A stretch of DNA of 32,429 nt from Candidatus Poribacteria bacterium (GTDB lineage: Bacteria > Poribacteria > WGA-4E > PCPOR2b): contig JADFGN010000015.1 in the NCBI GenBank assembly GCA_022567695.1, forward strand, positions 1 through 32,429, in the 5' to 3' direction. Below are positions 27,199-27,558 of this stretch, piece by piece. A program made the position numbers and the translations under genes. Within the stretch, counting starts at the first letter, position 1. The number at the start of each line of letters is the position of its first letter. The notes under the pieces were generated by a model. The model saw nothing but the letters and a program-made list of their open reading frames with translations, did no database searches and was not told the origin of the DNA.

Positions 27199-27558
27199 AT
27201 GAGAACACTTGTACTTGCCAACCTATTTCTTGCTGTTTTATTATTTTTGGCGAGTTGTACAAACTCACCGAAGAAGGCAGAATCACAAACACCCTCACCG
27301 GAGAAAAAGCAGCCGGTGACAATACAGACAGTGACGCTTGACATCGAAGGAATTACTTGAGGAGGCTGTGTCACCACAGTGCAGTCTGCACTGGAAAAAG
27401 TTCCCGGCGTTTCTTTGGTTCAAGTCGATATGGCAACGAACCGGGCGGTCGTCCAAATTGAAAAAGGAAAGACAACGCCGGCTGGACTTGTAAAGGCCGT
27501 TGATGATATTGAGAACATACGCGACTATCGTGCGACCGTGCTTAGCGTGTGGCCGTAG
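27199..27558 (+). CDS. candidate selenoprotein: lipoprotein with heavy-metal-associated (HMA) domain, UGA read as Sec at codon 54
   Basis: Translation MRTLVLANLFLAVLLFLASCTNSPKKAESQTPSPEKKQPVTIQTVTLDIEGIT(U)GGCVTTVQSALEKVPGVSLVQVDMATNRAVVQIEKGKTTPAGLVKAVDDIENIRDYRATVLSVWP*. TGA 27358-27360 is at the first Cys of GMTCxxC; RBS GAGGAAGA; lipobox LASC; SECIS-like hairpin downstream. Confidence 0.8.
27375..27394 (+). promoter_or_regulatory. bacterial SECIS-like hairpin
   Basis: CAGTGCA (27377-27383) - GTC loop - TGCACTG (27387-27393), extended by C27375-G27394 across a bulged A; loop begins with G 23 nt after the TGA. Confidence 0.7.

Follow-up and report, generated by a model that had tools for sequence, protein, structure and literature searches.

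The question raised by this locus is whether an in-frame TGA codon in a small gene of a Candidatus Poribacteria bacterium encodes selenocysteine (Sec), the rare 21st amino acid, and, if so, what the protein does. The window, i.e. the whole stretch of 32,429 nucleotides that was analysed (contig JADFGN010000015.1, assembly GCA_022567695.1), belongs to a genome of 7.3 Mb in 733 contigs, hereafter G000. The gene content, with PhyH, sulfatase, LamG and Gfo/Idh families, is reminiscent of sponge-associated Poribacteria. A first-pass annotation had proposed a HMA-domain lipoprotein in which Sec replaces the first Cys of the CxxC metal-binding motif. The frame on which this proposal was built was confirmed: it runs from an ATG at 27199, through a single TGA at codon 54, to a TAG stop at 27556-27558, and translation across the TGA gives a product of 119 residues with the motif GIT-U-GGC (U, Sec) around codon 54. 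The ribosome-binding site and the lipoprotein signal that had been described with it were also found. The signal peptide ends in a lipobox, read by eye as LASC at residues 17-20, whose Cys20 is unchanged in 14 of 14 aligned family members. Those checks suggested in the annotation that sequence analysis allows all turned out in its favour: the Cys-containing homologues, the hairpin downstream of the TGA, the Sec machinery of the genome and the retention of the TGA in relatives, all presented below. As far as sequence comparison can tell, the gene almost certainly encodes a selenoprotein.

The TGA lies within an intact HMA domain. The Pfam HMA model (PF00403) matches residues 46-103 across the TGA with 47.6 bits (E = 2.2e-12; gathering cut-off 24.8). 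Cys-type homologues, among them Cys domains of the poly-HMA chains described below, align through the TGA, and in alignments with PDB entries for ATP7A, ATP7B and B. subtilis CopA residue 54 coincides with the first Cys of GMTCxxC, in agreement with the proposed position of the TGA exactly on the first metal-binding Cys. The AlphaFold model, computed from the single sequence, exhibits the order of elements E42-50, H55-66, E71-77, E82-88, H94-102 and E111-118, which is the HMA fold; residue 54 lies in the loop preceding helix 1. Its mean pLDDT is 74, with values of about 87-90 across most of the domain core and lower ones near the UxxC loop. The top Foldseek match of the model is MerP (1osd; probability 1.00, E = 7e-7, TM 0.90 by target length). 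Both the Pfam score and the predicted fold are thus those of a HMA domain.

We examined the conservation of the TGA in 88 genomes of the phylum, 76 from the same order and 12 from outside it, the TGA-HMA counts being table readings. At least one TGA-HMA match is present in 76 of the 76 genomes of the order, and G000 itself carries a second TGA-HMA lipoprotein, a paralogue with the motif GMT-U-GAC (C439:21356-21667). Outside the order, HMA matches are of the Cys type or absent, save for one possible TGA-HMA in G067 (L115), for which the hairpin is poor in this register. A tRNA-Sec scores above the cut-off in 78 of the 88 genomes. In one class-mate that is 95% complete (G063), selA, selB and tRNA-Sec were not found in these searches, and no TGA-HMA was found either; this co-occurrence, in one genome only, is supportive but not strong statistics. 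The same TGA is kept in L134 and L135, two independent metagenome contigs whose proteins are nearly identical to that of the window (92 and 90%). Counted after codon 54, the codons before about 30 being out of register (2-residue indel), the 5 codons at which the window differs from L134 are all synonymous, and of the 8 that differ from L135, 6 are synonymous and 2 nonsynonymous. As the differences are mostly synonymous, the region past the TGA is under protein-level selection. Therefore, the paralogue, the presence in all genomes of the order and the coding-type evolution of the 3' half together place the TGA-HMA far beyond chance, and the homologues retain the TGA in the same position.

A single-protein database search with the window protein returned two matches only, probably because gene callers cut these genes; for the same reason the Sec-HMA family is largely missing from databases. 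A 640-bp contig of the European Nucleotide Archive (P0003) joins 46 residues of a window-type HMA to a GH108/peptidoglycan-binding protein and is probably chimeric. Another HMA group, with the motif GMTUPVNCPK (UxxxC), was seen on metagenome contigs L154-L159, apparently from a different lineage and probably from soil.

The Sec domains carry a hairpin of the type expected for a bacterial selenocysteine insertion sequence (SECIS). Its consensus is R-GUGC(A/G)-NNN-(U/C)GCAC-U, and GUGC begins 18 nt past the TGA; in the UxxxC forms of G011 and G018, which are one residue longer, the distance is 21 nt. This region holds a stem of 5 bp or more in 115 of 115 distinct Sec domains, compared to 12 of 42 Cys domains. 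In the same way, Val is encoded by GTG and Ala by GCA in 66 of 66 Sec domains each, whereas GTG is used in 2 of 6 and GCA in 3 of 6 Cys domains. In an alignment of 30 diverse members, 97% of the stem cells are paired, against 3-67% in slid controls. Double, compensatory changes were found at two stem pairs, A-U to G-C and, in G009, G-C to A-U (GTG..GCAC to GTA..GTAC). Because the sequences behind these counts are related, they are not independent observations, and it is the codon contrast with the Cys domains together with the compensatory changes that carries the weight. We take the hairpin to resemble the apical loop of the E. coli fdhF SECIS, as a lead only.

The genome also contains the machinery to use such a signal. 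A tRNA-Sec with anticodon tca was found at C238:3118-3207 (76.1 bits; gathering cut-off 47), adjoining selB at C238:1160-3052 (367 bits; cut-off 242), both genes being complete. The selD gene, on C43, has itself one in-frame TGA, in VECAG-U-ASKL, and scores 338.6 bits (cut-off 125) over 261 of 311 profile positions, up to the contig end. Of selA only the last 36 profile positions are present (C238 bases 2-109), the gene being cut by the contig end; it is complete in relatives, and the contiguous selA (50108-51463), selB (48137-50029) and selC (47917-48006) of G005, a closed genome of the same family, support reading the fragment as the selA C-terminus.

The domain occurs in several architectures in the relatives (Table 1). 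The single Sec-HMA lipoproteins are frequently encoded by two genes in tandem; in one tandem copy (L178, G044:C111:8998-9291) some ten codons at and near the Sec motif are missing in frame, which may be a true deletion or a misassembly. Secreted poly-HMA proteins combine 4 Sec and 1 Cys domains in G059 and G087, 3 Sec and 1 Cys domains in G025, G047 and G076, and 3 Sec and 2 Cys domains in G031; in these proteins each TGA has its own SECIS hairpin and the last domain is of the Cys type. The assemblies of G031 and G047 comprise 2 and 4 contigs. Additionally, a PSCyt1 cytochrome-c/WD40 protein carries a C-terminal HMA domain with Sec in G016, G072, G073 and G078, while its orthologue in G000 (C404) has the Cys form CDAC and has lost the hairpin. 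In G035 and G019 the Sec-HMA lipoprotein is joined to a stretch of about 370 residues that no Pfam model matches. The mosaic of architectures shows that Sec and Cys are exchanged inside a single domain family and that the hairpin goes with Sec.

Table 1. Features of the gene in the window and loci of related architectures (G, C and L numbers are our working labels).
Feature	Position	Strand	Evidence
Predicted selenoprotein gene, 119-aa HMA lipoprotein, TGA read through, stop TAG	27199..27558	+	frame translation, Pfam, alignment, codon comparison
Shine-Dalgarno-like GAGGAAGA, 6 nt upstream of ATG	27185..27192	+	read from sequence
Lipoprotein signal peptide, lipobox LASC, Cys20 acylated (predicted)	27199..27258	+	sequence; Cys20 in 14-member alignment
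HMA domain, residues 46-103, beta-alpha-beta-beta-alpha-beta, nearest solved structure MerP	27334..27507	+	Pfam PF00403, AlphaFold, Foldseek
UGA codon, predicted Sec54, at first metal-binding Cys position (UxxC)	27358..27360	+	sequence, relatives, structure alignments
Cys57, predicted second metal ligand of UxxC motif, invariant	27367..27369	+	14-member alignment
Bacterial SECIS apical hairpin A-GUGCA-GUC-UGCAC-U, within coding sequence; GUGCA 18 nt after UGA	27378..27392	+	comparative sequence
Poly-HMA proteins of relatives	G059:C30 (L060:3149-4573); G087:C125 (L181); G031:C1 (L062); G047:C2 (L063); G025:C44 (L061); G076:C77 (L182)		
PSCyt1/WD40-HMA proteins of relatives	L109; L108; L129; L130		
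PSCyt1/WD40-HMA orthologue in G000	L011:1468-3069		
Sec-HMA lipoprotein fused to about 370 residues	L050:2-1474	-	
Sec-HMA lipoprotein fused to about 370 residues	L051:1781-3238	+	

We propose that UGA54 would be read as Sec by the ribosome with SelB and tRNA-Sec, guided by the hairpin 18 nt downstream. The precursor would be exported and acylated at Cys20, leaving the HMA domain tethered to the membrane outside the cytoplasm, where Sec54 and Cys57, both on the beta1-alpha1 loop, would make up a two-coordinate selenolate/thiolate site. Such a site would most likely capture soft thiophilic ions, Cu+ or Hg2+ and possibly Ag+ or Cd2+, and these may be buffered or passed on in a MerP-like manner, with tighter and faster binding. 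In the poly-HMA proteins, 3-4 Sec sites followed by a Cys site may act as a higher-capacity chain, like the multi-HMA N-termini of ATP7A/B. Metal capture or relay is, in our estimate, the probable role.

Several observations weigh against this proposal. The conserved neighbours in the window and the relatives include no metal transporter, sensor or mer/cop gene; TGA-HMA genes lie beside GIY-YIG, PhyH, sulfatase and Gfo/Idh genes, so that it is the domain itself that argues for a metal role; and UxxC is a typical redox motif too. On the side of decoding, the Rfam search gave no SECIS match, the stem is short, and the fold of the region, taken from the single sequence, is no more stable than that of shuffles (z = 0.08). 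This fold energy is uninformative, and the apical hairpin alone carries the signal. A hairpin shortly past the UGA is present in every Sec domain and is conserved with compensatory changes.

The protein may instead be a selenoprotein whose UxxC is a thiol/selenol redox centre on a HMA scaffold, i.e. a membrane-anchored oxidoreductase or a peroxide or disulfide reductant working through a selenenylsulfide cycle. UxxC selenoproteins are mostly thought to be redox proteins (PMC13188914), the compartment is oxidising, the lack of metal genes nearby fits, and the fusion of relatives to PSCyt1 cytochrome-c/WD40 suggests electron transfer. However, the HMA fold and the position of the loop match metal carriers and not thioredoxin-like proteins, and no reductase partner is conserved nearby. 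We regard this explanation as unlikely but retain it, since UxxC motifs are common in redox proteins and a cytochrome domain is part of some relatives. Extracytoplasmic storage or delivery of selenium, comparable to the role of selenoprotein P in animals, would apply above all to the chains with 3-4 Sec that are found in six genomes. It is improbable, since every Sec is placed precisely in a HMA metal loop that is intact and retains the partner Cys, each chain ends in a Cys-type domain, and most genomes have single-Sec forms.

The explanations that deny Sec at codon 54 fare worse than metal capture by a selenoprotein. Under the standard code the locus reads as two open reading frames, and the TGA could be a true stop, or the gene decaying, with a 53-aa lipopeptide made and the downstream HMA untranslated. 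This is very improbable, and a pseudogene was rejected, given the purifying selection past the TGA (0 and 2 nonsynonymous differences in the two contigs), the TGA position kept across the order, the SECIS covariation and the full Sec machinery. Reading of TGA as tryptophan, suggested by a database homologue with GIT-W-GGC (P0002, Joint Genome Institute), has a negligible chance and was rejected, since 8 of 30 likely genes of the window end in TGA and Trp is encoded by TGG 142 times with no internal TGA. The W of P0002, which lies on a 1.6-kb contig, probably comes from gene calling under table 4. A sequencing error was rejected as well, since the TGA recurs in the paralogue, in the relatives and on two metagenome contigs of independent origin.

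We then compared the protein with known systems. MerP (TIGR02052, PDB 1osd/1afi) shares the single extracytoplasmic HMA domain and the CxxC loop in the same place, but it has two Cys, is soluble and lies in mer operons, whereas the window protein has a predicted Sec and lipid anchor and scores 51.5, below the cut-off of 92.55; no mer genes were found beside the gene in the window or in relatives. The highest NCBIfam score for the domain, 57.8 bits, is that of the CopZ copper chaperone (NF047957), below its cut-off of 85, and CopZ is cytoplasmic and Cys-only. The nearest curated selenoprotein families are NF041115 and NF045683, and the window protein is well below both cut-offs. NF041115, the UxxU_metal_bind (seleno)protein, likewise places Sec at the metal site of a HMA-like domain, but has two Sec in one UxxU motif instead of UxxC (score 54.3, cut-off 95). 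NF045683 (MerT_CopZ_Se) has a CopZ-like domain in a heavy-metal selenoprotein, fused however to a MerT-like transporter (score 51.4, cut-off 375). The poly-HMA protein of G059 passes the NF041115 and NF047957 cut-offs, via the sum over five domains. The UxxC form of the cation-transporting P-type ATPase E1-E2 (TIGR01525) shares UxxC in a heavy-metal transport protein (PMC13188914), but is a large transporter and not a stand-alone lipoprotein.

Selenium in HMA and mercury proteins is therefore an already known idea, through NF041115, NF045683 and the UxxC P-type ATPase. A 2008 study of Global Ocean Sampling data reported a 'Mercuric transport protein MerP' selenoprotein from 2 sequences, its motif not stated, and the same data list a UxxC P-type ATPase (PMC2398784). 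A 2026 prokaryotic inventory lists the UxxU metal-binding protein, a MerT-type protein and the UxxC P-type ATPase, discusses Sec as a metal ligand and has at most 3 Sec per protein in its largest entry; the PF00403 family, the lipoprotein UxxC family and the poly-Sec forms are not in it. The suggestion of the first-pass annotation that Sec/Cys HMA proteins may already have been noted is thus partly right. The absence of the lipoprotein UxxC and poly-Sec forms from the literature searched, with most subscription papers outside its coverage, is not proof of novelty.

It is an evenly balanced proposition that an extracytoplasmic system of metal handling has been built on Sec across the whole order, and probably in more lineages given the GMTUPVNC motif on soil contigs; it would comprise single UxxC HMA lipoproteins, fusions to cytochrome/WD40 and tandem poly-HMA proteins in which three or four Sec each have their SECIS. 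If true, this would be the first multi-Sec metal chain, exceeding in Sec per protein every prokaryotic family of the 2026 inventory. The poly-Sec chains also raise the question of how four UGA codons so close together can be decoded within a single mRNA, and their own Cys domains serve as built-in controls. The use of Sec is commonly accounted for by redox catalysis. Here, Sec would replace a textbook metal ligand in a well-understood carrier domain of 60 residues, and since its Cys forms are solved and affinities are measurable, the effect of selenium on metal binding is directly testable.

Elsewhere in the window, a c-di-GMP-I-GGC riboswitch (23106-23186, + strand, 64.3 bits) lies just upstream of a 229-aa open reading frame (23201-23890) whose product looks membrane-associated, and a bacterial class A RNase P RNA is encoded at 24208-24576 (+ strand, 303.7 bits).
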